Part shown: positions 26,974 through 53,668 of the stretch, piece after piece
How the letters are laid out: every line of letters begins with the position of its first letter
How positions within the stretch are numbered: the first letter of the stretch is position 1
NCBI RefSeq assembly: GCF_900459405.1
Contig: NZ_UHFN01000002.1
Location: 62,001-126,000 of the forward strand
DNA from: Streptococcus hyointestinalis
GTDB taxonomy: Bacteria; Bacillota; Bacilli; Lactobacillales; Streptococcaceae
Direction: 5' to 3'
DNA: 64,000 bases
Notes under the pieces: generated by a model
Database searches by the model: none
Told to the model about the DNA's origin: nothing
Seen by the model: only the letters and a program-made list of their open reading frames with translations
Program-made: the position numbers and the translations under genes

Positions 26974-27004
26974 AAATTGTCCTACTATCTAATTTGTCTA
27001 TTGA

Positions 27005-27736: not shown

Positions 27737-27761
27737 TCTTTTCTCCTGATATAAAGCGTCG

Positions 27762-27828
27762 ACTGATAATGACAATATAATATCCGTTTCTGATAAAAAG
27801 TGAATTTCTCTACTTTAAAAATTATAAT
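27762..27828 (+). promoter_or_regulatory. LytTR-type operator pair and promoter of the 129-aa gene
   Basis: Direct repeats ACTGATAATGACAA (27762-27775) and TCCGTTTCTGATAA (27783-27796) start exactly 21 bp apart. The -10 TATAAT is at 27823-27828, 40 bp after the start of the proximal repeat. There is no good -35 box, as expected for an activated promoter. It lies in the divergent gap and could also affect the response-regulator gene. Confidence 0.65.
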
Positions 27829-30510: not shown

Positions 30511-30786
30511 GATGATAAGCTGTTTGTGCCCTACTAGGCGAATAGTTGCCTTGTTTTGAATGACGTTTTAATTCACGGCTAATACTTGAGGGGTGCCGAT
30601 GTAATAGTCGTGCTATTTGAGAAAAGGTCATCCCTTTAGTACGATAAATCAGAATACTTTCTCGTTCATCTATGGTAAAATGATGGTAGCTCATAAGATT
30701 TCCTTTCGTAAGATGTTTGTTCAGTTTTATTTTACTAGAAAATCTTATGAGTTTTTATTGTGCACTTATATTGTAAATTCAAGGTC

Positions 30787-30861: not shown

Positions 30862-31608
30862 TTAATTGCGAGAAAAACTTTCGCATAAGTAAAGGCAATC
30901 TTGCCCCAGTGCTACTTTGCGATACATGAATGGTGAGGATGCTGTAATATAGTCAGAAAAATAGTCTGTAATAGCTGAAATTGCAGTATCTAATATAACT
31001 TCATCAATTGACCTCTCCCAGTACTCTTTGTTTTTCTTAACATTTTTTTCTACTTCTTTGTCTTTCAGGTAGTATTCTAAGTTTATTGTACCAGCATCCA
31101 TTTCAACAAAAGGCCCAACCCCAAGCAATTCTCCATCAGAAACTTCAAATAGCAGAACAAAACCCCGCTTGATAAGTGGTTGAATATCTTCAAGGTGACT
31201 ATTTTTATCATAGACAATAATAACGACATGATTTTCAGCTCCTAAATGCACTTCAAGCATATTCTTTAATTCTTCTAAATCAATTTGGCTATAATTTCTC
31301 AGTTCAATAGTTGCACCGTGTAATCTTAACATTAAGAACTTGGCCAACATCGCTTTATCTACCAATGAAGAACAAAGTGCTACATTCTCCTCCAACATTG
31401 AAAATAATTCCTTTTGATTATCTGAAATCGCAAAAGTATATTGGAGATGCTGGCTAATTTTTTTATTTAGTTGAGTATTCCTTACTAGTTCATCCAACCC
31501 TTTCGTAGTTTTTAAAGTAAGAAAGGGTTTTTGTGTTTTTACGTATTTCTCTGAAAAATAGTAGGTATTTTGTTTGTAGCTAACGGTCAAAAATGGGTTT
31601 AAATGCAT
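30862..31608 (-). CDS. E1/ThiF-like cyclodehydratase partner protein (putative)
   Basis: 248 aa from ATG 31608, chosen because GGAAGGATTGAAAAT precedes it; a longer reading overlaps sagB-like. Residues about 140-215 (NHVVIIVYDKNSHLEDIQPL, LLGVGPFVEMDAGTINLEYY) resemble the C-terminal part of ocin-ThiF-type proteins, the docking partners that present precursor to YcaO during azoline formation. No CxxC zinc pairs are evident. Last gene of the operon, after the SagB-like dehydrogenase. The family assignment is by pattern only; a more general maturation factor is possible. Confidence 0.55.
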   Translation of the reverse strand: MHLNPFLTVSYKQNTYYFSEKYVKTQKPFLTLKTTKGLDELVRNTQLNKKISQHLQYTFAISDNQKELFSMLEENVALCSSLVDKAMLAKFLMLRLHGATIELRNYSQIDLEELKNMLEVHLGAENHVVIIVYDKNSHLEDIQPLIKRGFVLLFEVSDGELLGVGPFVEMDAGTINLEYYLKDKEVEKNVKKNKEYWERSIDEVILDTAISAITDYFSDYITASSPFMYRKVALGQDCLYLCESFSRN

Positions 31609-31625
31609 ATTTTCAATCCTTCCTT

Positions 31626-32438
31626 TTATCCAAATAATATTCCATAGATACAATATTCCGTGTCGTTATTTTGGATTCCAATTTGTTTTTCAATCTCTTC
31701 GGGAAAGAGTCCACAAACTGGTAGTGACTTTTTATTGAGGTGGCTGGAAACAAGTTGCAAATTTTGTCCAACATGCCCTGCTTCAAAAAAGGCTAAACGC
31801 TCTGACAACTCACCATATTTTTTAAATGATTCTTTGAAATCAACAACCATGAAGACCGCAAAACTAAGTTTTTCTGTTGAATTACTAAGCGCATCTAATT
31901 TGTAAAGAGTCATTGGAAACAAATTATCCCATGTTATTTCTTTTTTACTTTCTACTTTGACTAATTTTTTTAACTGAGGACTGAGATAATAAACTCCTGG
32001 TTCAATCCCTTCTACATCCTTGACAAAAATATAAAGTTTTATCGGAAACAGCGCACCTCCCGAAGGATAATTTCTTAGGATTAAATCCTCTCCATGATAT
32101 ATCCTTTTTCGTGGATTTGGACCGATAGCAACTGTCAATAACTTAAATAATTCCTCTCGATTCCAGTTTCCTTCAAAAGAATTTAAAAGAGTTGACTGTC
32201 GATCTTCAAATAGTCTTCGAATTGGATCTTCTTCTGTTTTTTCTTGGTAGTAGTCATATTGTTTCATATCATCAAAATCCGTAATATTATCTTTTGGGAA
32301 TTGATAATCTTGTTTGGGACTGTTGTTCATAAACCAATTTATACGATTAGTCGCAAATTTCATTCGACGTTTTTTTATTTGCTCAAAATCAAAATTGGGT
32401 GTGTAATACACTTCTTTGTTTAATAATACTTTTTTCAT
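31626..32438 (-). CDS. SagB-type azoline dehydrogenase (nitroreductase fold)
   Basis: 270 aa. Signature segments are LRNYPSGGALFPIKLYIFVK (about residue 135), GIEPGVYYLSPQLKKLV (about 160) and ERLAFFEAGHVGQNLQLVSS (about 215), as in SagB/McbC FMN-dependent dehydrogenases. This enzyme oxidises thiazolines/oxazolines to aromatic thiazoles/oxazoles on the precursor peptide. The Gly-Gly-Ala-Leu-(F)-P motif normally includes the catalytic Lys/Tyr region of the family. It follows the 298-aa gene by 12 nt. Its presence implies that the product has aromatic azoles and not only azolines. Confidence 0.88.
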   Translation of the reverse strand: MKKVLLNKEVYYTPNFDFEQIKKRRMKFATNRINWFMNNSPKQDYQFPKDNITDFDDMKQYDYYQEKTEEDPIRRLFEDRQSTLLNSFEGNWNREELFKLLTVAIGPNPRKRIYHGEDLILRNYPSGGALFPIKLYIFVKDVEGIEPGVYYLSPQLKKLVKVESKKEITWDNLFPMTLYKLDALSNSTEKLSFAVFMVVDFKESFKKYGELSERLAFFEAGHVGQNLQLVSSHLNKKSLPVCGLFPEEIEKQIGIQNNDTEYCIYGILFG

Positions 32439-32450
32439 CTGTGCCCCTTT

Positions 32451-33347
32451 CTAGAGAGTTTTAGTTATCATTTTTTTGTGATAGTATCCATAGATAGCAC
32501 ATTCATATTCAATCGGGATACCTAGACGATTTGCAAACATGTGCATCTGAGAGAAGAGAACCGACCGCATCATTTTTTTACCCCTAAGTTGACAGACTTT
32601 TTCCAAATATTCCATTAAATTTGTAATAAATAAATCCCTAATTTCTGGTTGAATAATTGAGAAGATTGTCTTAATCTTTTCTTCCTTTTTTTCAAATGAA
32701 CGTTCAATAGAATCAATAACGTCTCCTATATAATGTTCATTCTTCAAGTCATATAGTTTATTCCAATAAGAGAAGCAATTCGCATAAAAATGTTCAAAAT
32801 CAAAGTCAATCTTCCTATCTATAATTGCTATTTTTACTTGCTCATAAACAAATATGTAAAATAGCATTCGAACCATCATGTGACAATTTATACAGTCTTC
32901 CAACATAGTAGACACTAGTCGGCTAGAGTGATAAAAAACAGTTTCTGCCTTCTCTATTACTTCACGTCCTCCGTATCTTTCATTTTCTCGAACATATGGT
33001 ATCGAAATAATAGAATTATTATCATACCAAGGCAAATTTTCTAATGGAATTTCTTTTCCATCTAGTTTATGTCCCTTATAATAATGCTCTTTTGTTAATA
33101 TCACATTGGAATTAGAGAGCTCTAACTCTAATAAATTCGATAGGATTTTACAATAATCTTTATTAGATGACTCTGCAGTCTTTATCCGAAAACGAATATG
33201 GGGACCGCCCTCCCAATAGCGAATGAAGAAAAAACATGTAAATTTTTCCTTAGACGCCCATTTATTTAAAGTACAGATAATACCATCATGAAGCATCATG
33301 TCATGACAAAAAATATGGTAGGATAACCACCGTTCAATTTCTTTCAT
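32451..33347 (-). CDS. LanB C-terminal-type elimination protein (stand-alone)
   Basis: 298 aa, the size of a free-standing elimination domain (Lant_dehydr_C / thiopeptide-type bacteriocin biosynthesis domain). Residues about 38-56 read CFFFIRYWEGGPHIRFRIK, the hallmark segment. PYVRENERYGGREVIEKAET (about 118-137) supplies the conserved YxxExxRYGG. In split dehydratases this protein removes glutamate from glutamylated Ser/Thr to give Dha/Dhb. It is encoded 6 nt after YcaO-1. The partner glutamylation protein is at 36630-39161. Confidence 0.85.
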   Translation of the reverse strand: MKEIERWLSYHIFCHDMMLHDGIICTLNKWASKEKFTCFFFIRYWEGGPHIRFRIKTAESSNKDYCKILSNLLELELSNSNVILTKEHYYKGHKLDGKEIPLENLPWYDNNSIISIPYVRENERYGGREVIEKAETVFYHSSRLVSTMLEDCINCHMMVRMLFYIFVYEQVKIAIIDRKIDFDFEHFYANCFSYWNKLYDLKNEHYIGDVIDSIERSFEKKEEKIKTIFSIIQPEIRDLFITNLMEYLEKVCQLRGKKMMRSVLFSQMHMFANRLGIPIEYECAIYGYYHKKMITKTL

Positions 33348-33353
33348 ATTTCG

Positions 33354-35033
33354 TTATGGAAAGGGATGAGGATATGAGTTGACCATTCCCATCTCCTTAA
33401 GCCCCCTCCTACTCCTTTCTCGATTGATACGGCTCATTGAAATTCGCTCATTTTGTACCCCAAAAGTTATAGGTAGTAGTCCTGGCACAATTACTTTCAC
33501 GGTATAGATGCCAAGTTCTTCCATTTCTTTTGAAGTCAGGTTGACCACGAAAACATCATCATATTTTTCCAATACTCGTTGAATTAATTCTTTCAAGTAT
33601 GACCTCGTGCTATTTTCCTGAATATATTTTTGTGGTGATAAATTAGTTACATGAGATGCCTCTAAAAAATCAAATGCCGCTTTATGCTGACTACTAGAAT
33701 AGTAATTTACATGATCTTCCATTTCAGTAACTTCGCTAGGAACCTCCATCCCAAATTCAGCATTCATATTATCGTGAATTTTAATTCCTACTAATGCCTC
33801 TAATAACGCTGATTCCGCTGCCTTATGGGGAATCGGATTACTTCCTGCTGCTGTATATGCGTACATCTTATGATCTTTCAAACTTCTTACCAAAGCCCAG
33901 AAGGAGGGAACACCTAACTCCATTGAAATATCAAAGACCCTTACATCGAAACCATCATGTTGTGCACGGTTAATTATTTTCAAAATATCCCCAGAGAGTC
34001 CCAGAGATTTTATTGTTACCTCTTCAACTGGAATGCGACCATACCACGTTGTTAAAAAGTTATCTCTCTCAATTAGTTCCAAAAGTCCATATAGAACCGC
34101 TTCCTCAAAGGTTCCTCCTAAAGAAACACCATTTGAACTATCATAAATAAAGCGATGTTGCTTCTTTTTATCTCTAAAGAATGAGTCCCCATATACTGCT
34201 AATTGTTCAGGAATTAATACGTTTTTATTGTTCTTCAAAGACTCTGCCTCTGTCCAATAAATCTCTAAGTCATTCCGATAAGGTGTAAATGGATTTTTAT
34301 CAGAGGAAGGTAGAATAAATTTTTCAGGATGAACAGCACTTGGTAAATCAGAAAACTTTCCATATATATCCTTTGTTTTGTATGGATAGTACATAGAGGA
34401 GAACCTCTCAATGGCTTCTAACTGTGCAATGTTGGTTGAATCTTGAAATGATGAAGAACGACCATACCCACACTCAGTATATTTATCTGTTACAGAATAT
34501 TCAATTCCCACACCTGGGAAATAATCCGAATCCAAATCAAAGAATTTACGATAGGCCACTGTTGTATCCAAAAAGTGTTGAGCATTTTTAGATAACTCTC
34601 CGATAGTTTTTACTCGAAACCCCTTTGATTCCTCAATATCTTTTTTTGCCAATAGCTGTTTTAGTTCTAATTGACTTCTTGTATAAGCATTTCTCTTCTT
34701 TTTAATATGGAAATAAAATGTATTTTGTTGTTCTAAATCTAATATTCCTACTTGTCCTTTTTTAAAAACAAGTTTTTCTAGGATAATTTTTGCCGACTTT
34801 TTTGCAGAATCACTATTCTGGTATTTTGCTGAAAACATACCTATTAGTAGATTCTTTGTTTTTGTTTTTTTGTACAGAGTAATAGTGTATAAAAAATTCT
34901 CAAGAAAGCCCTTTTCCTTTATGAAGAAAAAAATTTGGTCAGCCACCAAAATGGCGTACTTTATTCCATCTTCCAAAGTCCACAAATGCTCTTCATCAAA
35001 AAATGAATCATTGGTAATTAATTTCGTTTCCAT
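33354..35033 (-). CDS. YcaO cyclodehydratase 1
   Basis: 559 aa. The C-terminal two thirds form a YcaO domain: YTECGYGRSSSFQDST with LEAIERFSS (residues about 187-213), then IYDSSNGVSLGGTFEEAV and LELIERDNFL (about 297-328), carrying the Glu/Arg/Asn residues that bind ATP-Mg. The C-terminus is SYPHPFP, matching the Pro-rich PxPxP tail typical of azoline-forming YcaO enzymes. It uses ATP to cyclise Cys/Ser/Thr of the precursor into azolines. It overlaps the upstream 176-aa gene by 26 nt (translational coupling). Its residue-level similarity to YcaO-2 (41821) is limited, so they are paralogues of different task or specificity. Confidence 0.92.
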   Translation of the reverse strand: METKLITNDSFFDEEHLWTLEDGIKYAILVADQIFFFIKEKGFLENFLYTITLYKKTKTKNLLIGMFSAKYQNSDSAKKSAKIILEKLVFKKGQVGILDLEQQNTFYFHIKKKRNAYTRSQLELKQLLAKKDIEESKGFRVKTIGELSKNAQHFLDTTVAYRKFFDLDSDYFPGVGIEYSVTDKYTECGYGRSSSFQDSTNIAQLEAIERFSSMYYPYKTKDIYGKFSDLPSAVHPEKFILPSSDKNPFTPYRNDLEIYWTEAESLKNNKNVLIPEQLAVYGDSFFRDKKKQHRFIYDSSNGVSLGGTFEEAVLYGLLELIERDNFLTTWYGRIPVEEVTIKSLGLSGDILKIINRAQHDGFDVRVFDISMELGVPSFWALVRSLKDHKMYAYTAAGSNPIPHKAAESALLEALVGIKIHDNMNAEFGMEVPSEVTEMEDHVNYYSSSQHKAAFDFLEASHVTNLSPQKYIQENSTRSYLKELIQRVLEKYDDVFVVNLTSKEMEELGIYTVKVIVPGLLPITFGVQNERISMSRINRERSRRGLKEMGMVNSYPHPFP

Positions 35034-35538
35034 TTACTGCCTCACAATAAATATCTTTATCTTTTAAAAAGTTCAATTTTACGTACATACCTTTTCTTTT
35101 AGGCTTATGTTCAAAATCTACTAATACTTTTATCCCTTGCTCTCTTAAATAGGAACGCAATAGTTGAGCAGCTAATACTTTTACTATTGTTTTACCACTA
35201 GTTGTATCAATTCCATCTGAAAAAGTAGATGTTTCAATTTGGTTTAATTCTTGACTAACTGCCATTACTTTATCAAAGATTTTTGACATATTTTTTGCAA
35301 AAAATTCGACTATTTTTTTACAGTCATACTTATTTAATGTAGGAATATCAATAAGACTTTCTACGTTAACTAACTCAAAATTTATAGATGGTAGTTTTAC
35401 ATTTCGAGATTCCACTGAGTAGATAAAATTTTGATTGTTTACTTTATGTGATTTCACTTCCCTATTTTCTAACGAAAATTTTCTATAGTAAGTGCCATCG
35501 AAAAAATATTTTTTTCCATTTTCAACTAAAATATGCAT
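35008..35538 (-). CDS. Small protein coupled to YcaO-1, function unknown
   Basis: 176 aa, starts MHILVENGKKYFFDGTYYRK. The N-terminal 50 residues are beta-rich, the middle helical (YDCKKIVEFFAKNMSKIFDK), and the C-terminal part reads GKTIVKVLAAQLLRSYLREQ. No recognisable catalytic motif. Its 3' end overlaps the YcaO-1 start, so it is probably a partner of that enzyme, perhaps a precursor-recognition or E1-like fragment, which is inference from position. It follows the 356-aa gene by 3 nt. Confidence 0.8.
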   Translation of the reverse strand: MHILVENGKKYFFDGTYYRKFSLENREVKSHKVNNQNFIYSVESRNVKLPSINFELVNVESLIDIPTLNKYDCKKIVEFFAKNMSKIFDKVMAVSQELNQIETSTFSDGIDTTSGKTIVKVLAAQLLRSYLREQGIKVLVDFEHKPKRKGMYVKLNFLKDKDIYCEAVNGNEINYQ

Positions 35539-35541
35539 TTA

Positions 35542-36612
35542 CTACACCCTCTTCTTAAAAAGCTTTTGCATTATAGCATAGCTGTCCTCCCAGGTTATAT
35601 CATAACCTGTCTCAACTTTGTCACACACCATTTTAGTAATTTTCTGTTTACGTAACGGATTTACGTTTAATAGCGGTACTATCTGATAAAGAACATCAAC
35701 TGTGTAACGATAAAGGGCAAATGGAATTGAGGAATGTTGTGACAAAAAATCTCGGTTAGTAAAGAAATTTTTGTGAAATTCTGTTAACTGCCCATTCTCA
35801 CGCGCCCATTGGAGAAAGCTCTCTGCATCACTCATATTTTGGTAATATAAATGTCCCTTTTCCAATTCATCGGTGAAAAATTGGTAAAGTTCTTCAACAA
35901 ATACTTTAAAATAAGAATCTTCGTTTTCCTCTAAAAATGTTTCAATATTTTCATGAATGAATATCTGTTCATCTGAAGATAGAGAATTGACTAAATGATA
36001 ATAATGTTCATAATTTTCTTGATATTTTGTGTCCTTTAAGCTTTGAAGCTGTAGATTAAAGAATAAGATGTTTGACTTCATGGATAGATAACCCATTTTC
36101 AAATTATTATTAAAGAGCAAGCCCAAATTCAAAAAAAGTTTTGTCAATAAAATGTTTTGTTGGCTTTCACTTTTATTGAAAAAACCAATCTTCTCTAGAT
36201 AGAGAATAAGCTCCATTTTCTTCTCTTCAACAGCTAACACTGTCTTTGGCGAGCTCAAGCTACTTCCCTCTGTTGATGTCTTAATTTCTTCCAACAATAG
36301 CGTTCCATCTGGCTGAATGTCTAAATCAGCTTCTGTGTTTTCAACACTTGAAACAGTCATAATTTGTTTCTTCAATTTCGATTCTTCAATAGTAACAGGT
36401 GCATAGTTTTTCAGTGATTTCGCTAAAAAACTCTCTAGTTCCTTCAAATCTGATAAATTTGGACTGTATATTTCAATATGGTGCCCCCTTTGAATAGATT
36501 TCTTGATCCAAATATTGCTCAATTTTTTCTCATTAAGCAAAGAGTATATTTCAATAATCAATTTATTTGAAAAAGCTAAGTTATTGATAAATACTGATAA
36601 TTTATATTCCAT
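35542..36612 (-). CDS. Lant_dehydr_C-superfamily protein; candidate [4+2] pyridine synthase
   Basis: 356 aa. Residues about 18-55 (KLIIEIYSLLNEKKLSNIWI followed by KKSIQRGHHIEIYSP) align in pattern with the WFFIRYxxxGPHIRLR opening of LanB elimination domains. The canonical YxxExxRYGG motif seen in the 298-aa protein is absent. In thiopeptide clusters a second, diverged member of this superfamily (TclM/TbtD type) joins two dehydroalanines to the macrocycle-forming pyridine. Gene position, directly after the glutamylation protein, fits that or a second eliminase. The tail is helical with KHxxxR-like basic residues. Assignment is inferential. Confidence 0.6.
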   Translation of the reverse strand: MEYKLSVFINNLAFSNKLIIEIYSLLNEKKLSNIWIKKSIQRGHHIEIYSPNLSDLKELESFLAKSLKNYAPVTIEESKLKKQIMTVSSVENTEADLDIQPDGTLLLEEIKTSTEGSSLSSPKTVLAVEEKKMELILYLEKIGFFNKSESQQNILLTKLFLNLGLLFNNNLKMGYLSMKSNILFFNLQLQSLKDTKYQENYEHYYHLVNSLSSDEQIFIHENIETFLEENEDSYFKVFVEELYQFFTDELEKGHLYYQNMSDAESFLQWARENGQLTEFHKNFFTNRDFLSQHSSIPFALYRYTVDVLYQIVPLLNVNPLRKQKITKMVCDKVETGYDITWEDSYAIMQKLFKKRV

Positions 36613-36629
36613 GTTTACCCTCTGATTTC

Positions 36630-39161
36630 TTAATCATCTGTTTCAACAATCAATTCTGTAATTGTATCCGTTTCTGTATAAATACAGTCTGGTAAGGTTT
36701 CTTCAATTAAAATTTTTTCTTTCTTTTTCATAAACACTACAAAAGCTTTAAAACTCAAGAAAGACTCAAAATTAATATATAGTGGTTTCGTTTTTAATAA
36801 TTCAGAGTCTTGGTTGTAACTTTCAAAAAAATCTTTGATAAAGAAAGACAACGGTAGCCCTTCTTTTTCAAAATATCCTACTACCTCTAACCATTTTCTT
36901 CCCATTGAACTATCTTTATCAAGAATAACACGTAACTCCTTACAAGTGAAATACCACTTTTTTCTAGATAAAATCAAGTCTGTATTTTCAAAGCATATTC
37001 TAGGCAATATTACCTTCTCTTCTGATTTTTTCTCCAATTTTTGTCTTAATAACAATTCTCCAAAGTCAAAATAAATAGAGTCATTAAGAGTGATAGAGTT
37101 GAACACTGCGACTAACGAAGGAAGAGCAACAGTAATTAAACTACCTAAAAAATGCGGATAAACAATATTTCCTGTTGTCTTCTCAAATACTTCAATCTCT
37201 TTTGAACTTTTTGAAAGTCTAAATCCTAAATCTAACCACGTCAGCTGCTTAGGACTTTTCAAAGTCAAATCGCCTAATGGCAAATACAAAGTTCTATCAG
37301 TACTTTCCCGAATATTAGCATTAAAACCAAATGTCATTGGAATATCAACAATCTCTCCATCTAGCCTATAAGCATCTAATTCTTTTGGAAGATAATGATT
37401 GAATCTTCTTCTATAAACACCATATCCTTTATAAATATGATTGAAAATAATTTTATTTTCTGGACTCACTTGTAGAAAGTACCCACGGGATTTATGAGTC
37501 TGACCTACTAGTTTTTCTAATTGCGCCGTAGAATCTTTCAATAAATCATGCGAAATAACAAGAACCGAACCATCTCCCAAATCTTGTACTAATAATTGTT
37601 GCACAATGTCTTTCTTCAGTTTCAAGAGCTGGTTGTCAATCTGATGATCGTAGGAAGTTCCTAAATATCCAAAAGATTCCATCCAATAAGCATCTCTTTG
37701 AAAAAGTGTTGCTGCCAAATCTCGTAAAAATTTACTTACTTCTCTAGCATTTTTGGGAATAAACTCACTTCCATAATTCGTCTTGAGCATTTCATAAGCT
37801 AAATATTTACTGCGAGTTGAAATATCAAAGATTGAAATAAATTTTGATAAGTCCTCAATAATTTTCTGGTTTTCTTTTACTACTTTGACTTGTTCTTCCA
37901 AATAGATGCCATTTTGTGATGTAACCGTATCAATTGAAACATAGGTAGACTTATTAAAACCTTCTATACCATAAGCTTGAACGATTTGGTGAACTTCTTC
38001 TATCAATTGATCATAGATAGTCCAAGAAAACATTTCATTTTCTAGGTCAACTACTTTTTTAAGGATTGCAATCTCGTCTGAGAATAATTCTGAGGAAATT
38101 TCTTTTAATTTTTCAAGCAAGGCTTGTGAAATGCTTTGATTTCCGACAATGTTGATTTGTTCTGCTGGAAGTATTACTCGATTTTCCAACAATTTTGGAA
38201 GGTAACCCTCTTGAGCATTTTGTGATAAATATTTCAGAAGTGCACTTCCTGTTAACACTTGTTGACTCTTAAACAGTTCTAGAATTCCATTTAAGCTCCT
38301 ATTTTCAGAAAGAGTTACCAATTCTTGACGGTTACGATAAAGACTTTTCCCTGCAATATCATTAAATACCGTAATATAATACTTTCCGTCTTTATAGATA
38401 AGAGTCTCATTTAGTTTAAATGTTAACTTTGGCTGATATTTCGGATTTAGATAAATCCGATCAAACAACTTCAAAATAATAGATGAATTCACCGACATAA
38501 TAATATTTTTCTTTAGGTCAAACATTTCTCGTCCGTGTACACCAGTCGTTCCCAACAAACCTAATGGGCTTGTTTTAGTAGATATACGAGCATAGTAATT
38601 ATACAAGAAAACATCCATTTGACGTTGTTTTTTATTATGCTTTTCAACATTTGTTTTAAGTAGTTTTTCAATTTTTTGATAGAGACTTTGGTCAATCATC
38701 TTTGTATTTTGAATAAAATCAGGGTGTTTAGATAAGCCTTCCATAATTAACTGTTTCTCAGTTAAATACTGTTGATGAACCAACCCTTCAATCTTGTCTT
38801 CAATCTCTATAATTTGTCTTTGATATTCAAAATAAGAATCAAATATAACTATCAGTTTTTGTGGAATTAGTGAAGCTATTTTACTATATTTATTAGATAT
38901 ATCACCACGATTATTGTAAAAATCATGTGAAAATTTAAGTAATTGCTGTTTGTTTTTATTTTCTGGAAAATCCTGAATTGCAAGATTTAATTCCTGAATT
39001 CCTGTCTCGCGGGTCAATTCTAATTGTTCTACTAAGTGAGAGTATTTAGACTGATGTGTGCGCAATATTTTAAAAAAACCTTTTTGGAAAATATTTGAAA
39101 ATTCATTGTTTGGAAAATTTGTTTTTCTATAATATATATTTTTAACCATTGATTCGTTCAT
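36630..39161 (-). CDS. LanB-type glutamylation protein (split dehydratase, N-terminal domain)
   Basis: 843 aa, the usual length of free-standing glutamylation domains (Lant_dehydr_N). It contains NYYARISTKTSPLGLLGTTG (about residue 190), equivalent to the Y.R.S.K..PFG motif, and further conserved stretches such as GYGVYRRRFNHYLPKELDAY (about 590) and ITVALPSLVAVFNSI (about 690). It transfers glutamate from Glu-tRNA to Ser/Thr side chains of the precursor as the first step of dehydration. The elimination domain is encoded separately (32451-33347). It overlaps the M20 hydrolase gene by 20 nt. Confidence 0.9.
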   Translation of the reverse strand: MNESMVKNIYYRKTNFPNNEFSNIFQKGFFKILRTHQSKYSHLVEQLELTRETGIQELNLAIQDFPENKNKQQLLKFSHDFYNNRGDISNKYSKIASLIPQKLIVIFDSYFEYQRQIIEIEDKIEGLVHQQYLTEKQLIMEGLSKHPDFIQNTKMIDQSLYQKIEKLLKTNVEKHNKKQRQMDVFLYNYYARISTKTSPLGLLGTTGVHGREMFDLKKNIIMSVNSSIILKLFDRIYLNPKYQPKLTFKLNETLIYKDGKYYITVFNDIAGKSLYRNRQELVTLSENRSLNGILELFKSQQVLTGSALLKYLSQNAQEGYLPKLLENRVILPAEQINIVGNQSISQALLEKLKEISSELFSDEIAILKKVVDLENEMFSWTIYDQLIEEVHQIVQAYGIEGFNKSTYVSIDTVTSQNGIYLEEQVKVVKENQKIIEDLSKFISIFDISTRSKYLAYEMLKTNYGSEFIPKNAREVSKFLRDLAATLFQRDAYWMESFGYLGTSYDHQIDNQLLKLKKDIVQQLLVQDLGDGSVLVISHDLLKDSTAQLEKLVGQTHKSRGYFLQVSPENKIIFNHIYKGYGVYRRRFNHYLPKELDAYRLDGEIVDIPMTFGFNANIRESTDRTLYLPLGDLTLKSPKQLTWLDLGFRLSKSSKEIEVFEKTTGNIVYPHFLGSLITVALPSLVAVFNSITLNDSIYFDFGELLLRQKLEKKSEEKVILPRICFENTDLILSRKKWYFTCKELRVILDKDSSMGRKWLEVVGYFEKEGLPLSFFIKDFFESYNQDSELLKTKPLYINFESFLSFKAFVVFMKKKEKILIEETLPDCIYTETDTITELIVETDD

Positions 39162-40233
39162 TCTCCTTTTCCACCAATAACGTCATTACATACAATCCTC
39201 TTAGCAAGGTAGCTTTCGGTGTCACAAATTTCTTTGAATGGATAGCGTGACCACCATTATATGCACCAATAAAGAAATAACATGTCTCAGCATCCAATTC
39301 CTTACCATAAAATGAAAAATCATCACAGGAAAATAAGAACGGTGTTTCCAACACCTTTATAACTTCACTTTGAGATAAATTTTGATAGACCCATTCATAG
39401 AGCCTTGCATCATTGTGTAGTACAGGATAGTTCATAATGATTTCATTTTGATAATCAACATTTAACTGCTTCAAAAATATTTGCTGTTTTAGCTTGCACT
39501 TTTCAGCAGTTTTTCCTCTAAAAGTGATATTAAAAGATAGTTCTGTTGGAGATACATTGTGAGACCCGTTAGAAAAAAAATTTGTAATTTTACAACGAAA
39601 ATCTGATTCGTTCAATTTCATTGATAATAAAACTAACTTAGCAAATAGAGTTGCGGCACTTTCTCTTTGATGACTCACATGTCCACTATCTCTTAACGAG
39701 AGTTTTAAATGACATGTTAACCCTGCTGCTAGAACATCACCCTTATTAATTGATACATAATTAGAGTACAAATCAGAGGTGACATGGAGAGCATAAATTT
39801 TTGATATTGAAATTTTATTTTCCTTCAAAAATTTACAAACTTCTTTTGCTCCACCGTACTTCTCCTCACTAGCTTGAAAAATGAACAGTATATTTAATTT
39901 CGGTTTGTTTTGTGCTACATATGTTGCAAGCTCTAATTGAATACTAGTGTGAGCGTCATGACCACACCCATGATAATAAACTTGAGTGCTCTCGTTAATT
40001 TCTACTGCATCCAACTCAGAACGAAAAGCTAGGTCATAATGATTATCTCGTCCTTCTCGTCCTATATACTGATAAATCAACCCTAATTTCCCTTCATAAA
40101 TTTTTTTGATATTAATTCTGCATAAAACCCGCCTTACATAATCTTTTGTTTTTTTCTCAAAGAAGCCTGGTTCAGCCTGACGATGCAACAACTCATAGTG
40201 TGAAAACAACTGATTAGAAGTAAGCTTATTCAT
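39142..40233 (-). CDS. M20-family amidohydrolase/peptidase in the biosynthetic operon
   Basis: 363 aa. Zinc-ligand motifs of M20D amidohydrolases are visible: FRSELDAVEI (about residue 68), YYHGCGHDAHTSIQLELA (about 88-105), QASEEKYGGAKE (about 130, catalytic Glu) and, late, GGHAIHSKKF. Relatives cleave N-acyl amino acids or small peptides. It has a one-base overlap with the ABC permease stop (TAATG-type), so it belongs to the operon. Possible roles are trimming leader remnants, removing a protecting acyl group, or self-protection; the sequence does not decide. Confidence 0.88.
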   Translation of the reverse strand: MNKLTSNQLFSHYELLHRQAEPGFFEKKTKDYVRRVLCRINIKKIYEGKLGLIYQYIGREGRDNHYDLAFRSELDAVEINESTQVYYHGCGHDAHTSIQLELATYVAQNKPKLNILFIFQASEEKYGGAKEVCKFLKENKISISKIYALHVTSDLYSNYVSINKGDVLAAGLTCHLKLSLRDSGHVSHQRESAATLFAKLVLLSMKLNESDFRCKITNFFSNGSHNVSPTELSFNITFRGKTAEKCKLKQQIFLKQLNVDYQNEIIMNYPVLHNDARLYEWVYQNLSQSEVIKVLETPFLFSCDDFSFYGKELDAETCYFFIGAYNGGHAIHSKKFVTPKATLLRGLYVMTLLVEKENERING

Positions 40234-40952
40234 TATTGTCTCCTATTTACTTGTAGAGATTTACTTACAATGATTGTCACAAGCCCAGCGATAACAATAT
40301 ACAGAGAAATTACAAGAAAAGCTTGTAAGAACTTTTCAGCGGTATTGTTTAAAAGTACCTCATTATAATAAAAGCCAGGGAAAAATTTTTGTATTGTTAC
40401 GATGATATCTGGCATTTTCATTGTATTCATGATATTCGGTGTAATATTCAACATCATAAAAGCGAAGAAGATTGGCATAGAAGCAGAAGCTAGCGTTTCG
40501 TCATTAAAAATTGTTCCCAGTAGAAAACCGATTACTATATAACAAAAACCAAAATAGAGTAATAAACTAGCAATAAATAGATAGGAACCCGTTACTTTTA
40601 AACTCCCGACTAAAATCCCAGCCAAGGTTATAAAAAATAGAATCAAAATATTTAAAATCGTTTGAGCCATTACACTATCAAACATGTAATGTGCGTAAGA
40701 ATATGGGGAAATTTTATCCATAATACGGAAGTATCCCTTTTCCTTTGAAACCTTTTGACTAAAGGTGTTCAGACCACTTCCTGCAATGCCAAACATAGCT
40801 GAGAACAAAGCAATCATTCCATTATCCTCAGTATTTACGTAGTTCAGTTGTTTAATAAAAAAAATATAAAATGTTACTGGAAATAAAATAGTAAAAATAA
40901 CAAATCTTTTATTTTGTAGACTATTTTTTATCTGTTGTACAATTGAAATCAT
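40233..40952 (-). CDS. ABC-2 type permease of the peptide exporter/immunity pump
   Basis: 239 aa with about six hydrophobic helices (for example FVIFTILFPVTFYIFFI, ILNILILFFITLAGILVGSL, LFIASLLLYFGFCYIVIGFL, VISLYIVIAGLVTIIV). ABC-2 family membrane subunit. The start overlaps the ATPase stop by one base, so they are coupled. It probably exports the mature peptide or protects the producer. Confidence 0.88.
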   Translation of the reverse strand: MISIVQQIKNSLQNKRFVIFTILFPVTFYIFFIKQLNYVNTEDNGMIALFSAMFGIAGSGLNTFSQKVSKEKGYFRIMDKISPYSYAHYMFDSVMAQTILNILILFFITLAGILVGSLKVTGSYLFIASLLLYFGFCYIVIGFLLGTIFNDETLASASMPIFFAFMMLNITPNIMNTMKMPDIIVTIQKFFPGFYYNEVLLNNTAEKFLQAFLVISLYIVIAGLVTIIVSKSLQVNRRQ

Positions 40953-41794
40953 TATTTTTCTCCTTCTATAAATGAAATACGTTTAAAAATATCAACTACT
41001 TGCTTACGACGTTTGAAATTTTCTGGATTAGTAATTTCATTCGTTACAATTAATTCTTGAGCGCAGAGGGGATTTATTACCATACTTTTATCATCTGTAT
41101 AAAATAATTTCTCTTTTGGAACGTCATTTTTTATCATTTCTCTTGGAAATTCATATAACTCCTCTACAAACATATCATCTACTGAGATGTTTTCTTCAAA
41201 AATGCCTTCATTCAGTAGCAATATGTAGTCGGCGAATGACTCTATTTGATACAAATCATGCGTAATCAAAAGAATCGTCTTACCTTCAGCTTTTAACTTC
41301 TTAATTTGCTGTACAAATTTTTCCACGCTATCATAATCCATACCTGCAGTAGGCTCATCCAAAATCAATAACTTAGGATTATGTAATACAGCCAACAAAA
41401 TGGAAAGTTTCCGTTTTTGTCCACCAGATAGCGTCCCTGCTTTTTGATTTTTCTCCTTTTCCAATCCCATATTTTTCAGTTGTTCGTCAATATTAACTTT
41501 TTTATGGAAAAAAGAAGCCTGTAGCTTAATTAAATCCAAAACTGTAATATCTTTTGGAAAATAATCTTCTTGAAAGACAACTCCAATATCTTTTTTGATA
41601 TTTAGGTTCGTTGCTACATGCCCCCCATCTTGCTTGATAAGTTTGAGCAAAATACTGATAAAAGTTGTCTTTCCTGCACCATTTTTCCCAAGTAGAGTAT
41701 AAACTTTTCCTGATTCTAAATCTAAGTCCACACCTTTTAAGACAGCCTTTGTTCCAAAATTTTTTATCAAATTATTAATTTCAATTAAACTCAT
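40952..41794 (-). CDS. ABC transporter ATP-binding subunit
   Basis: 280 aa. Walker A LLGKNGAGKTTF (about residue 35), Q-loop VVFQEDYFP, signature LSGGQKRKLSILLAV (about 130), Walker B LLILDEPTAGMD (about 152) and switch His in LLITHDLYQIESFADY. The C-terminal extension (about 60 residues) is diverged. It partners the permease at 40233-40952. In peptide-antibiotic operons such pairs export the product or expel it as immunity. Confidence 0.93.
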   Translation of the reverse strand: MSLIEINNLIKNFGTKAVLKGVDLDLESGKVYTLLGKNGAGKTTFISILLKLIKQDGGHVATNLNIKKDIGVVFQEDYFPKDITVLDLIKLQASFFHKKVNIDEQLKNMGLEKEKNQKAGTLSGGQKRKLSILLAVLHNPKLLILDEPTAGMDYDSVEKFVQQIKKLKAEGKTILLITHDLYQIESFADYILLLNEGIFEENISVDDMFVEELYEFPREMIKNDVPKEKLFYTDDKSMVINPLCAQELIVTNEITNPENFKRRKQVVDIFKRISFIEGEK

Positions 41795-41820
41795 TTGTTT
41801 TCCTTTCTAAGTTTAGAATA

Positions 41821-43551
41821 TTAAGGGAAGGGGTGTATTGGAATTTCGCTATAGTTAGAGACTTGAATTCTTCGATGATTGATGTATTGATTTTCATAAC
41901 CAAAATTCATATCCTGCATTCCTGGAGCAAAAACCTTTACCTCACATAAACCGATCTCCTTTAAACCAATTGGAGTATTTTCTACAATATAGAAATTCCC
42001 AAATTTTTTATTTGTAAACTCAAGTAATTCTGAATAGTAAGCATCTATATCAATACTATAGTCACTCTCAACATCAAAATCTATAATCTCTGCTTCCTTC
42101 AAAAAATTAAAATTTTGACTTCTTTCCTCCACTGAGTAATAAATCGCATGATCTGCTACTGTAGTAACATCTTGAGGAAGCATACGTTGGCTATTTTTCT
42201 GAATATCTCCTACATCTTGATCATAAGCATAAAGCGCAAAATATAACTCTTTTAAAGCTGAAATAATTGCAGACTTTCCAAACAAATGTGCTCCTGCCGT
42301 TGAGTAAGTTGCAAACTTATTGCTACCTTTTCCACGAGCAATTGTCCAATAAATGTTCATTACTTGGCTGGAAAGTAATTGATAAATTGATACTTCATAA
42401 TCTAAATTCTTGATCAACATCAAATAGTAGCTTATCTCTGCATCGTAAATGCTTGTTTGATTTATCTCTTTAGGTACTCTCTTTTCATACCAATGAAGCA
42501 AAAAATTATCTCGTTCATACATCTCAAAAAGCGAGAAGATAACAGCCTCCTTAAAACTGTTACCAATAGCATGTCCATTAGAACTCACGTTTATTAATTT
42601 TTTACTTGTAGACTGTCTTTTTGCCTTGTAAATGATAAAATCTTCGGGTATTAAAACGTATTTTTGAGATTGATAGTTATACGCTACTAGCCAATAAATT
42701 TTTGTTTCCTGATTTAACAATGTCTTACCAAGACCAGACAAGTATTCATTAGGATTTAAGTAATCCATTGCTTCTCGATTTAGGTCATTTAGAGAAAAAA
42801 GAAAACGTTTTTGCCCCTTTGAAACAATTCCACTATACCGCTCCATAGCTTCCAAAAACGCTTTTGATCTGGCTTTTTTATAGCTAATATCAATCCCAAT
42901 ACCTGAAACCATCTCACTTTGAGAAAACGGGTACTGCAATTCAACAGTTACTGCATTTTTTAAAAAAGTTGTTAGCTCTCGCCTAAAAAGGCCAGTATCT
43001 TTATTATCTAGTTGAATATAGCAAGAATAGTCTCCTAATTTCTCTCTTAAAGAAGATGCCATACACTGATAATTACTATTAATAATGCTGCTATCAAATC
43101 TTTTATTATTAGAAATACAAGTATTACAATTTGCTATTCTAAAAAATTTGTATCTAGAAATTTGATAATCCTCAATGACAAAGTAATCAAACAAAGGAGA
43201 TTCTGAATTGAGGCGAATTAGTTGAGAGATAGCATATTGCAATTTTTCTTCATATAGATTATTTCCATCAATATCTATCACTTCATTTCCTTGTCCAAAA
43301 AAATCTGCCAGTTTAAATTGACTACGATGTTCCAAAAAACAGTGACTACAGATCTTATCCTTTTTATTAAATAGAGGACTGACAAATAGCTTCTTTTCAT
43401 CCCAAAATATAATTATCCCCTCTTCAACTCTCTGAGAACGAAAATAATCTAAAGTTCCAAAATATAAGTTCACGTTCTGATAAACAATCTTCATAGGTTG
43501 ACTCCTATGGGAATTCATAACTATTTCCTGTACAAATTGCCAAATTCGCAT
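41821..43551 (-). CDS. YcaO cyclodehydratase 2 with N-terminal zinc-tetrad domain
   Basis: 576 aa. Residues 1-200 carry two CxxC pairs (CSHC at 68-71, CNTC at 142-145), like the structural zinc site of E1-like domains fused to YcaO in linear azole peptide enzymes. The YcaO domain follows: IDISYKKARSKAFLEAMERY (about 220-239), VSSNGHAIGNSFKEAV (about 322) and FEMYERDNFLLHWY (about 342). The C-terminus IPIHPFP matches the Pro-rich tail of cyclodehydratases. It is encoded 4 nt after the putative leader-binding protein; together they look like a split RRE/E1-YcaO enzyme. Having two azoline-type YcaO proteins in one operon is unusual. Confidence 0.9.
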   Translation of the reverse strand: MRIWQFVQEIVMNSHRSQPMKIVYQNVNLYFGTLDYFRSQRVEEGIIIFWDEKKLFVSPLFNKKDKICSHCFLEHRSQFKLADFFGQGNEVIDIDGNNLYEEKLQYAISQLIRLNSESPLFDYFVIEDYQISRYKFFRIANCNTCISNNKRFDSSIINSNYQCMASSLREKLGDYSCYIQLDNKDTGLFRRELTTFLKNAVTVELQYPFSQSEMVSGIGIDISYKKARSKAFLEAMERYSGIVSKGQKRFLFSLNDLNREAMDYLNPNEYLSGLGKTLLNQETKIYWLVAYNYQSQKYVLIPEDFIIYKAKRQSTSKKLINVSSNGHAIGNSFKEAVIFSLFEMYERDNFLLHWYEKRVPKEINQTSIYDAEISYYLMLIKNLDYEVSIYQLLSSQVMNIYWTIARGKGSNKFATYSTAGAHLFGKSAIISALKELYFALYAYDQDVGDIQKNSQRMLPQDVTTVADHAIYYSVEERSQNFNFLKEAEIIDFDVESDYSIDIDAYYSELLEFTNKKFGNFYIVENTPIGLKEIGLCEVKVFAPGMQDMNFGYENQYINHRRIQVSNYSEIPIHPFP

Positions 43552-43555
43552 GTTT

Positions 43556-44320
43556 CTACCTCATGGTAAGCACAAGTCCTAGATGTCGAGCAAGGCTATC
43601 TTGACAATAGATATGTGCACCTCTATTGCCTTGCTTGTTACAAAAATCTTCATAAGACTCTGCTTTACTTCTTCCTATACCAATACTGCCATAACTCAAT
43701 TTAGACTCCATCATCCCTTTTATTGTCTTAAATACAAGTTCATCTATATTAGTATCTTCAAAACTATATACCTCTTTTTCAGGAGTTTGAATTTTCATTT
43801 TAAATTTTTTCTGATCGTAAATAATATCAAATACCTCTATTAAGCTTTCAAAATATATATTTTTCAAAATATTAATATCTAGAAAATGATTAATAGTTGG
43901 TAGTATTAATTCTGTCTCAACCTTATCTAACACATGATAAATAGAAATTCCTTCTTGCAATTGTTTAATTTCCTGATGTTCAGTAATTTCAACATAATAA
44001 GGTCCTTTTAGATGACTTAGTAACAGATTTTGCCTATATATATTCTCTTCTTTTGTAGACAACCGTACTGCCCTTGGGAAAAAGCGTTTTAGTGACTTTT
44101 CCTCATGCTGTGGAAGTCGAAATAACTGTTTTCCAGCTTTATATATAGAGAGCTGTTCTGATAAAGCCTGCTTTATTCCAAAAATTTTATCTGTATTTAC
44201 ACTAATAGATTGAATCAGATCTTCTACAGAGTGACACTTAGGGAGTCCTACCTTCCGAGTTCTTCCAAGATAGGATACTAACACACTATCCTCTTGAATC
44301 ACATATTTTAAGTTTACCAT
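43556..44320 (-). CDS. Putative precursor-leader-binding (RRE/E1-like) protein
   Basis: 254 aa, with GAGGAATAG before ATG 44320. The N-terminus (LKYVIQEDSVLVSYLGRTRK ... HSVEDLIQSISVN) has the beta-strand then helix pattern of the RiPP recognition element found at the start of E1-like cyclodehydratase partners. The C-terminal part (YGSIGIGRSKAESYEDFCNK, GAHIYCQDSLARHLGLVLTM) is unassigned. First enzyme gene after the precursors and nearly contiguous with YcaO-2, so it most likely presents the leader to that enzyme. The assignment is by pattern and position. Confidence 0.6.
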   Translation of the reverse strand: MVNLKYVIQEDSVLVSYLGRTRKVGLPKCHSVEDLIQSISVNTDKIFGIKQALSEQLSIYKAGKQLFRLPQHEEKSLKRFFPRAVRLSTKEENIYRQNLLLSHLKGPYYVEITEHQEIKQLQEGISIYHVLDKVETELILPTINHFLDINILKNIYFESLIEVFDIIYDQKKFKMKIQTPEKEVYSFEDTNIDELVFKTIKGMMESKLSYGSIGIGRSKAESYEDFCNKQGNRGAHIYCQDSLARHLGLVLTMR

Positions 44321-44337
44321 CTATTCCTCACCACGAT

Positions 44338-44386
44338 AAAAAACAAACAGAACTATACAGAATTATATATAGCTGTATAATTCTGT
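44338..44386 (-). terminator. Attenuator between precursor genes and enzyme genes
   Basis: Minus-strand stem ACAGAATTATA / TATAATTCTGT (44357-44386) followed after about 13 nt by TTTTTT (44338-44343). A leaky terminator here would give abundant precursor and less enzyme mRNA, as is common in RiPP operons. The distance from stem to T run is larger than ideal, so strength is uncertain. Confidence 0.55.
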
Positions 44387-44414
44387 TTATTCGATTCAAA
44401 TGTTAAATTATTGT

Positions 44415-44573
44415 TTAAGCACAACTAGATGAACATGATGAACATGAAGTTGAACCACATGTACTGTGACCACCACTTCCACTTGTGGCTGCTGTAGCTG
44501 GTACTCCTTCTACATCGTCCAATTCTAAAATGTCAATTTCTAGCTCTTCGAGTAAGTTTTTTTCATCTTTCAT
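44415..44573 (-). CDS. Precursor peptide, copy 3 (promoter-distal)
   Basis: 52 aa, identical to the other two copies. The acidic leader (MKDEKNLLEELEIDILELDD, then VEGVPATAAT) is followed by a Ser/Cys-rich C-terminus ending STSCSSCSSSCA. The last 22 residues hold ten Ser, two Thr and four Cys, with Cys in SC, SSC and SSSC settings. These are substrates for azole formation and dehydration by the operon enzymes. Start is ATG 44573 after GAAAGGAAATC; the longer in-frame reading enters the tail of the preceding repeat and is rejected. The leader style (LEELEIDILELDD) resembles thiopeptide precursors. Confidence 0.9.
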   Translation of the reverse strand: MKDEKNLLEELEIDILELDDVEGVPATAATSGSGGHSTCGSTSCSSCSSSCA

Positions 44574-44620
44574 TTTTTTGATTTCCTTTCTTTTACATAT
44601 TGAAATGCTGCCTCTGTATC

Positions 44621-44779
44621 TTATGCACAACTAGACGAACATGATGAACATGAAGTTGAACCACATGTACTGTGACCACCACTTCCACTTGTGGCTGCTG
44701 TAGCTGGTACTCCTTCTACATCATCCAATTCTAAAATGTCAATTTCTAGCTCTTCGAGTAAGTTTTTTTCATCTTTCAT
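44621..44779 (-). CDS. Precursor peptide, copy 2
   Basis: 52 aa, residue-for-residue the same as the flanking copies, with the same GAAAGGAAATC ribosome site. It lies exactly 206 bp from each neighbour. DNA differences from the other copies are only a few silent or intergenic bases, so the triplication is recent or homogenised. Confidence 0.9.
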   Translation of the reverse strand: MKDEKNLLEELEIDILELDDVEGVPATAATSGSGGHSTCGSTSCSSCSSSCA

Positions 44780-44826
44780 TTTTTTGATTTCCTTTCTTTT
44801 ACATATTGAAATGCTGCCTCTGTATC

Positions 44827-44985
44827 TTATGCACAACTAGACGAACATGATGAACATGAAGTTGAACCACATGTACTGTGACCACCACTTCCACTTGTGG
44901 CCGCTGTAGCTGGTACTCCTTCTACATCATCCAATTCTAAAATGTCAATTTCTAGCTCTTCGAGCAAGTTTTTTTCATCTTTCAT
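44827..44985 (-). CDS. Precursor peptide, copy 1 (promoter-proximal)
   Basis: 52 aa, identical peptide. Start ATG 44985 is preceded by GGGAGGAGAAACAAA, stronger than the sites of copies 2 and 3. It was established by reading the minus strand, where stop TAA lies at 44827-44829. It carries silent changes (GCC/GCG wobble in the Ala-Ala pair, one in the leader). First gene after the operator-bearing promoter at 45043-45110. Confidence 0.9.
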   Translation of the reverse strand: MKDEKNLLEELEIDILELDDVEGVPATAATSGSGGHSTCGSTSCSSCSSSCA

Positions 44986-45042: not shown

Positions 45043-45110
45043 ATTATAGTCTAGTAGCCTATCAATTTCACACAATTATCATAAACGGTATATAATTAAT
45101 CATTTCCTAG
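45043..45110 (-). promoter_or_regulatory. Operator pair and promoter of the precursor operon
   Basis: On the minus strand, direct repeats CTAGGAAATGATTA (45110-45097) and ACCGTTTATGATAA (45089-45076) start 21 bp apart. The proximal one matches the published LytTR half-site pattern (A/C-rich, GTT, then A/G and T/G). The -10 TATAAT is at 45048-45043, 41 bp after the proximal repeat start. No consensus -35 is present, which fits activator dependence. Confidence 0.7.
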
Positions 45111-47062: not shown

Positions 47063-47238
47063 AATTGTTTATGCCATATCATTGTAACACCTTATTTCAA
47101 AAATCACAAAATAAGGTGTTGGTTTTGTATACACTTTTTACACTAAACTTCAGTCCAAAATAAAACAATTTCCTTATTTTAACTATTGAACTCAAAATAT
47201 TGTTCATCAAATGCCTTGAAAGGCTTGACAAATAGTAG

Positions 47239-47585: not shown

Positions 47586-47687
47586 TTCACATGGCAGCTA
47601 CCACGTACAAAAGTTTTTTTATCAGATCCGATACTAAAAAACCAAAAGTAATCTCGACAATTCCTGCATAACACAAGAAAAGAAAAA

Positions 47688-47893: not shown

Positions 47894-47934
47894 ACTACCA
47901 TAGCCTATGCTTACTTCATTTGACTACAAAAAGA

Positions 47935-48126: not shown

Positions 48127-48136
48127 GACTACCATA

Positions 48137-49466: not shown

Positions 49467-49479
49467 GTGGTCTTAACAA

Positions 49480-49914: not shown

Positions 49915-49940
49915 CCCCTATATCCTTTCTAAAACAAGCA

Positions 49941-50057: not shown

Positions 50058-50059
50058 CT

Positions 50060-53645: not shown

Positions 53646-53668
53646 TGTTTTTTCTACATTTAGGAAAT

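Follow-up and report, generated by a model that had tools for sequence, protein, structure and literature searches.

The closest described relatives of the gene cluster studied here lie on circular megaplasmids of Streptococcus salivarius, namely pSAL813 (NZ_CP040803) and pIKMIN-B501 of strain DB-B5 (NZ_CP054154), where seven and six annotated precursor genes, respectively, accompany 12 further genes in a common order and a regulator pair. The precursors of both plasmids carry the PGAP name 'thiazolylpeptide-type bacteriocin'. For the DB-B5 megaplasmid, the genome paper gives a thiazolyl peptide bacteriocin locus predicted by BAGEL4 (PMC7530928); for pSAL813, the BAGEL4 results in the LAB813 announcement name a lantibiotic locus but no thiopeptide (PMC6787328). 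We analyzed a 64,000-nucleotide stretch of Streptococcus hyointestinalis DNA (contig NZ_UHFN01000002.1, positions 62,001 to 126,000; hereafter the window), which has these 12 genes in unchanged order, along with three precursor genes, at 30862-44985 on the minus strand. Four enzymes compared with the S. salivarius locus were 66-74% identical, and the core of the pSAL813 precursor is SGSGGSSTCGSTSCSSCSSSCA. The window copy is on a 213,008-base contig, with transposase-like open reading frames (ORFs) before the regulators. Judged from gene families and genome comparison, it is very probably a complete, maintained cluster for a ribosomal thiopeptide (thiazolyl peptide).

Several other systems share parts of this enzyme set. 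The predicted Th1 cluster of Carnobacterium divergens has a precursor of the same family (...SGSTSCSASSTCGSTSCCGSC), a cycloaddition enzyme and two LanB-like proteins, but one cyclodehydratase is named there and the tail, CGSC, is shorter than in the window (PMC7409045). The micrococcin/thiocillin cluster of a Staphylococcus hominis plasmid (core SCTTCVCTCSCCTT) and the lactocillin cluster of a Lactobacillus paragasseri plasmid share YcaO, split LanB, dehydrogenase and pyridine synthase with the window, whereas they differ in a Ser-Cys start, a dense Cys core and a single YcaO; the S. hominis cluster also has an annotated spare L11 gene, unlike the window. Lactazole A (LazA-F), likened here by description, shares the tail motif SSSCA and has a pyridine synthase weakly similar to TclM and TbtD, but comes from a compact five-enzyme Streptomyces cluster and has a 32-membered ring (PMC7210931). 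In a locus of another family (G563; core SGSGSSSTCGSSSCSSCSSSCA), genes for two YcaOs, the ATP-binding cassette (ABC) transporter, the M20 hydrolase, the glutamylation (K), pyridine synthase (M) and elimination (L) proteins and SagB stand in the same order as here. This locus differs in a second, diverged glutamylation-like gene (805 aa, L095:10005-12422), weakly similar to that family (E 9e-18 to the K profile), whereas the window has one such gene. Where the window has its 254- and 176-aa genes, G563 has longer ones (386 and 436 aa), which correspond to them by position. One study of pneumococci includes a gene for a thiazolylpeptide-type bacteriocin in its list (PMC11261835), and one precursor of the type found in G088 (P0021) was named as pneumococcal in our protein search.

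No report of a product of this cluster type was found in the open full-text literature searched, subscription papers being outside its scope. Large thiopeptide surveys outside that literature, e.g. Schwalen 2018 (cited in PMC8120280), may include these loci. An earlier reading of the letters and their ORFs alone (the sequence-only reading) had called the operon uncharacterised; as far as searched this holds for the product, but not for the locus type, which has the PGAP annotation and the BAGEL4-predicted locus (PMC7530928). By these comparisons the cluster is real, complete and conserved, and it is ordinary in kind. A complete thiopeptide pathway in a streptococcus, with kin on oral-origin S. 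salivarius megaplasmids, could matter in competition among such bacteria.

Gene content and conservation

Inspection of the ORFs in 30862-44985 gave 12 intact enzyme, transport and partner genes and three precursor genes (Table 1). All ORFs named in the sequence-only reading were found where it had placed them, and internal stops were absent. In the order of transcription, the three precursors are followed by the genes for the 254-aa protein, YcaO-2, the ABC ATPase, the ABC-2 permease, the M20 hydrolase and the 843-aa protein, and then by those for the 356-aa protein, the 176-aa protein, YcaO-1, the 298-aa elimination-type protein, SagB and the 263-aa protein. Profile matches agreed with the earlier naming of two YcaOs, SagB, the 843-aa glutamylation protein, the 298-aa elimination protein and M20, and identified the ABC exporter as an ABC-2 transporter. 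The precursor models together with PF04738 and PF14028 likewise bore out a thiopeptide-type pathway with split LanB dehydration. The precursor itself scored above the cut-offs (in brackets) of TIGR03892 (41.2 bits; 25), NF033400 (36.8; 30) and PF19409 (45.3; 23.5).

The three precursors, described earlier as identical, are indeed one 52-aa peptide. Their genes lie in a 206-bp direct repeat whose copies are 100%, 99% and 84% identical to the reference, and the coding sequences differ pairwise by 2, 3 and 5 bases, all synonymous. Between the precursors and the enzymes we found a strong hairpin, absent from the sequence-only reading, with a folding energy of -23.8 kcal/mol (z -4.69; none of 200 shuffles folded as well); it was not in the list given by a simple terminator scan. 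Such a hairpin would lift precursor over enzyme transcripts. The promoter-like site upstream of precursor 1 is one of 16 such sites in the region, against 9.6 expected by chance.

The 12 genes recur in unchanged order, together with two precursors, in a second species (G036), one of 284 genus genomes searched. Between this locus and the window, the ratio of nonsynonymous to synonymous substitution rates (dN/dS) was 0.067-0.292 for each of the 12 non-precursor genes, indicating that the cluster is maintained. Transposase genes occur on both sides and transposase-like ORFs lie between enzymes and regulators, and the relatives include truncated or recombined precursors (P0016-P0020), as would befit the remains of an island, decayed or silent, flanked by insertion sequences; this explanation is most improbable in view of the intact ORFs, the dN/dS of 0.07-0.29 and the solely synonymous precursor changes. 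Gene content, intactness, selection and the family membership of enzymes and precursor are read from the sequence directly.

For the chemistry, we infer the steps, their order, export, trimming, regulation and an antibacterial use from the named families. Guided by the leader, the YcaOs would turn core Cys and some Ser/Thr into azolines, which SagB would oxidize to azoles. The 843-aa protein would glutamylate Ser, and the 298-aa protein would eliminate glutamate to leave dehydroalanines. The 356-aa protein would then join two dehydroalanines to a pyridine by a formal [4+2] reaction, a step that completes the macrocycle and splits off the leader in amide form. Export would fall to the ABC-2 transporter and control of expression to the LytTR/GHKL pair, and the M20 hydrolase may act in trimming the product.

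An alignment of 14 YcaOs showed that both window YcaOs keep the conserved Glu/Arg (E/ER), SNG, ERD and the C-terminal HPFP. A C-terminal end of the HPFP type is linked to azoline formation. Both are probably azoline-forming, because all these features are retained; the best solved relatives of YcaO-2 by sequence were MusD and TruD. Sister loci with different cores, where covered more fully, have one YcaO each. The order with two YcaOs is common to the window, G036, pSAL813, pIKMIN-B501 and, outside the family, G563, and all four two-YcaO loci with a core read (window, G036, pSAL813, G563) have the tail SSCSSSCA. A TIGR03882 match was found at the N-terminus of both G563 YcaOs, and none was listed for the window YcaOs. 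Two YcaOs are not new in kind, since thiopeptide clusters with a discrete cyclodehydratase, the type of TP-1161 and berninamycin (likened here by description), occasionally carry a further fused one (PMC4603692).

Among the other proteins, the 843-aa protein had one solved relative, the lantibiotic dehydratase domain protein 6ec7 (E 1.2e-4). The 254-aa gene adjoins that of YcaO-2 also in G036, pSAL813 and pIKMIN-B501, the position of the 176-aa gene is kept in the same three, and the 263-aa protein is related to 247- and 252-aa proteins of sister loci (hhalign 71%).

Table 1. Positions in the window of the cluster genes and of the sites and regulators assigned to them
Feature	Position	Strand	Evidence
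Precursor copy 1, 52 aa, ...TAATSGSGGHSTCGSTSCSSCSSSCA	44827..44985	-	TIGR03892, NF033400, PF19409
Precursor copy 2, identical peptide	44621..44779	-	direct repeat, coding sequence comparison
Precursor copy 3, identical peptide	44415..44573	-	direct repeat, coding sequence comparison
Long hairpin then T-run, probable attenuator	44325..44415	-	RNA fold
Promoter-like site upstream of precursor 1	45043..45071	-	consensus match only, 10/12 positions
254-aa protein, no family; possible YcaO-2 partner	43556..44320	-	conserved adjacency to YcaO-2
YcaO-2, putative second cyclodehydratase, 576 aa	41821..43551	-	PF02624 136 bits
ABC transporter ATPase	40952..41794	-	PF00005 101.7 bits
ABC-2 permease	40233..40952	-	PF12698 39.1, PF01061 30.9 bits
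M20-family metallohydrolase	39142..40233	-	PF01546 76.1 bits
Putative glutamylation protein, 843 aa, LanB N-terminal type, TclK/TbtB-like	36630..39161	-	PF04738 40.4 bits, cut-off 28
356-aa pyridine synthase homologue, putative [4+2] enzyme, TclM/TbtD family	35542..36612	-	NF045556 (weak); intermediates; conserved residues
176-aa protein, no family; possible YcaO-1 partner	35008..35538	-	conserved position
YcaO-1, putative cyclodehydratase, 559 aa	33354..35033	-	TIGR03604 248.7 bits, cut-off 219.25
Putative elimination protein, 298 aa, LanB C-terminal type, TclL-like	32451..33347	-	PF14028 127.1 bits, cut-off 24.4; TIGR03891 85.6 bits, cut-off 48.45
Putative SagB-type azoline dehydrogenase	31626..32438	-	TIGR03605 97.2 bits, cut-off 78.4
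263-aa protein, no family; conserved last gene	30862..31653	-	relatives in sister loci
LytTR response regulator of the system	27005..27775	-	PF04397 78.3 bits
GHKL sensor kinase of the system	25663..26973	-	PF14501 60.6 bits

The 356-aa protein as a putative pyridine synthase

The sequence-only reading took the 356-aa protein for an extra member of the elimination superfamily, as expected for the [4+2] enzyme, and this was upheld through intermediate proteins and shared residues. A profile of the close 356-aa family (A1) picked up six proteins from other genera (E 5e-12 to 2.7e-6), all encoded next to a same-type precursor. A profile of TclM (from the micrococcin-type locus of the S. hominis plasmid) and LclM (from the lactocillin plasmid) matched these six too, at E 5e-11 to 5e-4; the E-values of both profiles, of the bridging profile below and of the K profile above refer to small ORF sets. 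Elimination proteins were listed by neither profile at E 0.05. When A1 was compared with an alignment of the six bridging proteins, hhalign gave 97.3% over 308 columns. Five of the six were scanned with NF045556 (TbtD/PbtD pyridine synthase), yielding 262-278 bits for L092, L093, L094 and L099 and 43.8 for L091, and the G563 counterpart of the 356-aa protein matched this model over its full length (E 1.4e-17). Across 17 aligned members, TclM and LclM among them, Ser180, Phe279, His280 and Arg302 never vary, and Gly174 and Ser177 (16/17) and Glu334 (15/17) are nearly invariant. The protein database contained nine homologues besides the query, and more distant homologues were found in other precursor-bearing loci; scans of the named genome records with the 356-aa protein and its alignment returned zero relatives.

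The homologue also follows the precursor. TIGR03892 at E up to 10 matched 83 of the 284 genus genomes, five of which passed its cut-off, and 18 of the 19 inspected loci with an STCGS-type precursor carry a 356-aa homologue (window, G036, pSAL813, G056, G098, Latilactobacillus curvatus, G088, Lactobacillus johnsonii, G043, G422, G430, G427, G386, G563, G619, G536, G437 and G456). The weakest assignments, G043 and G536, were missed by A1 and were made with the bridging profile (E 2.8e-23 and 3.3e-12, respectively) and NF045556 (3.6e-5 and 9.4e-8). The exception, G246 (L047), combines a precursor with an ABC ATPase gene and, within 19.9 kb, lacks any modification enzyme; its precursor is a candidate orphan or remnant. 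G577, found by TIGR03892, was left out of the 19 as its core is that of thiocillin (SCTTCVCTCSCCTT), and its pyridine synthase scored 143.5 bits with NF045556.

Several results weigh against a pyridine synthase and against a thiopeptide pathway as a whole. The 356-aa protein reached only 23.6 bits (E 2.7e-5) with NF045556, whose cut-off is 325. Direct hhalign of A1 against TclM+LclM gave 7% one way and 21% reversed, and BLASTP of the 356-aa against the 298-aa protein gave no match. The profile of the bridging proteins spans the superfamily: it also matches elimination proteins, the window 298-aa protein having E 4.3e-7 and the 356-aa protein 1.7e-15, and its alignment with the elimination family reached 97.2%. 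The residue conservation above was compared within 17 members of the synthase family. Moreover, the 254-, 176- and 263-aa proteins fell below every Pfam/NCBIfam cut-off, no leader-binding protein could be named among them, and their earlier label 'E1/RRE-like' was not confirmed. Finally, no spare L11 or EF-Tu for self-protection was found, the genome having one true copy of each.

Direct tests of the 356-aa protein were weak throughout. The profile searches suggested with the sequence-only reading went well for the 298-aa protein, which passes Lant_dehydr_C (PF14028), but the 356-aa protein had no Pfam match and only the weak one to NF045556. Among solved structures, phmmer with the 356-aa protein returned only taxadiene hydroxylase (E 0.46-0.49); the A1 profile placed PbtD at the top of the solved chains, but at E 0.94. 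The cut-off of 325 bits of NF045556 is the mark of a subfamily, because TclM of the S. hominis micrococcin-type cluster (68.5 bits) and the scanned bridging proteins (43.8-277.5 bits) fail it too. The weak direct tests are overcome because the intermediates tie the protein to TbtD/PbtD-like proteins and to TclM. On this basis the 356-aa protein is a divergent [4+2] pyridine synthase homologue, an assignment supported by homology through intermediates and shared residues.

The same superfamily relations bear on whether the product would instead be a linear peptide with azoles and dehydroamino acids, like goadsporin, the 356-aa protein being a second elimination enzyme or serving another role. 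Clusters of the goadsporin and coryneazolisin types do combine azole and split-LanB enzymes without a cyclizing enzyme (PMC4603692), the 356-aa family aligns weakly with elimination proteins (hhalign 55%), and the bridging proteins share the superfamily. But A1 and TclM+LclM converge on the same six proteins and on no elimination protein, a separate elimination protein is present, and the 356-aa homologue occurs in 18 of 19 loci. A goadsporin-like cluster would lack a homologue of the [4+2] enzyme, and the window has one. A linear product is very unlikely on this evidence, although we raised its probability slightly, and lowered that of a thiopeptide slightly, because the bridging profile also reaches elimination proteins.

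Core peptide and macrocycle size

We compared the core with those of related precursors found by a protein search, in which 120 of 229 matches were listed and P0069 was excluded from the counts. The block S-x-C-[GAL]-x-[STC]-S-[CST] fits 131 of 138 related precursor proteins without insertions or deletions, giving 98 distinct cores. Ser occupies block positions 1 and 7 in all 98, Thr at position 7 occurring in none; this invariance is conditional, as the pattern requires Ser at 1, Cys at 3 and Ser/Thr at 7, and the profiles with which the proteins were found contain the block. In the window precursor the two serines are Ser37 and Ser43. The seven precursors without the block (P0014, P0016-P0020, P0126) appear shortened, recombined or frame-shifted. 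One of them, P0017, resembles the leader joined directly to the last part of the 263-aa gene, as would result from loss of a cluster between short repeats. In pSAL813 (L015:2300-4300), a degenerate leader of a precursor stands after the seven intact copies.

The size of the macrocycle is 3n-4, where n is the number of residues from the first to the second serine, which fits the 32 members of lactazole from Ser1 to Ser12. For Ser37-Ser43 this gives a 17-membered ring. The second serine of a pyridine is usually flanked by residues that become azoles, and Ser43 is flanked by the azole-capable Thr42 and Cys44. Lactazole is a precedent for an azole-flanked second serine; known thiopeptide rings are described as 26- to 35-membered, and the lactazole enzymes make 14- to 62-membered ones (PMC7210931). 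The boldest reading for the STCGS family, possible but less likely than not, is a 17-membered ring between the two invariant serines of the block S-x-C-x-x-x-S-x (Ser37 and Ser43 in the window), with the leader amide released before Ser37 and a linear tail after Cys44; YcaO-2 and the 254-aa protein would be an added module for azoles in the tail SSCSSSCA. If the invariant pair is used in this way, natural thiopeptides would reach well under the published 26- to 35-membered range.

The sequence-only reading had a 22-residue core that starts at SGSGG, which is possibly misplaced. The core may instead begin at Ser37, because the residues that separate SGS from STC differ across the family in number and kind. 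SGS nevertheless is the most frequent motif at the boundary (68 of the 96 cores, among the 98, in which the tripeptide pattern was found, five of the 96, AAT and AAS, being off register), and a minority has SGI, SGG, SGT, SGA, SGF, SGV, SGN, SGE, IGS or GGS in its place. A ring from an upstream SGS serine to Ser43, 35-membered from Ser31 or 29-membered from Ser33, would lie within the known range and leave residue 2 unmodified; likewise, Trp2 of lactazole is unmodified, and the lactazole enzymes accept rings of many sizes (PMC7210931). A classical Ser-Cys stands upstream of the block in 43 of the 98 cores. However, both SGS serines are replaced in some cores, at no single offset upstream does Ser reach 98 of 98 (best, 82), and the segment between SGS and the block is 3, 5 or 6 residues long in nine core types, with variable composition. 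We regard such a ring as possible but doubtful.

A ring in the other direction, from Ser37 to the tail serine Ser49 or Ser50 (35- or 38-membered), would leave a micrococcin- or lactazole-like tail. The tail motif SSSCA equals lactazole Ser10-Ser11-Ser12-Cys13-Ala14, which is described as important for ring closure (PMC7210931), Ser stands at -4 from the C-terminus in 57 of the 98 cores, and rings of 26-35 members result for several core types. Against this, Ser at -4 is missing in 41 cores, and beyond the block 33 of the 98 have no further Ser with S/T/C on both sides, leaving no family-wide rule, and we consider it unlikely. Natural cores may differ in the serine they use, which keeps upstream and tail serines as candidates. 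The comparison of 98 cores narrows the question of the family's product to one invariant serine pair, and the mass of the leader amide would name the ring.

Three candidate rules were dropped along the way. Invariance of the SGS serines was true in ten sequences and broken in the set of 98 cores, and Ser at -4 seemed a rule in eight of nine core types, yet fell short in the same set. A pairing of M20 with cores ending in Cys-Ala was also abandoned, since the lactocillin precursor ends in Cys-Ala and no M20 is annotated there.

Regulators, contig setting and neighboring genes

A regulator pair at 25663-27775, also absent from the sequence-only reading, follows the enzyme genes. Compared with the pair after the pSAL813 cluster, its LytTR regulator has 81.9% and its GHKL kinase 68.6% identity, and pIKMIN-B501 has a pair of this kind there too; no LytTR/GHKL pair was found within 19.9 kb around the G036 cluster. 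By this likeness the pair belongs to the system, which exceeds the span 30862-44985. Transposase-like ORFs at 28309-30694, read from sequence only, part the window regulators from the enzymes. Those on the plus strand (29221-30477) seem to interrupt a transposase-like gene of the minus strand (28309-29131 and 30485-30694), so that the segment appears to be one insertion inside another.

The contig that holds the window is apart from the main contig, and its 213,008 bases are similar in size to the S. salivarius megaplasmids. For the replication initiation protein of pSAL813 there was no good match on it, RepA_N matched only on another contig, and a ParA-like match was found on it (30% identity, E 1.4e-9). 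A search of 47100-64000 against plasmids returned only short pieces, mostly TnpB regions.

Among the neighboring genes, that at 7061-19882 on the minus strand encodes a 4273-aa surface protein with a KxYKxGKxW signal and an LPXTG anchor, like a serine-rich repeat adhesin; short tandem repeats cover about 7250-17635 of it, and the opposite strand contains a 3498-aa open frame. Three TnpB-like genes lie within 11 kb, of which those at 50204-51313 and 59850-60959 were assigned to OrfB_IS605 by profile and that at 57208-58419 by sequence likeness only. A MazE-type antitoxin gene followed by a Fic/Doc gene (62213-62934, plus strand) forms a probable toxin-antitoxin pair.

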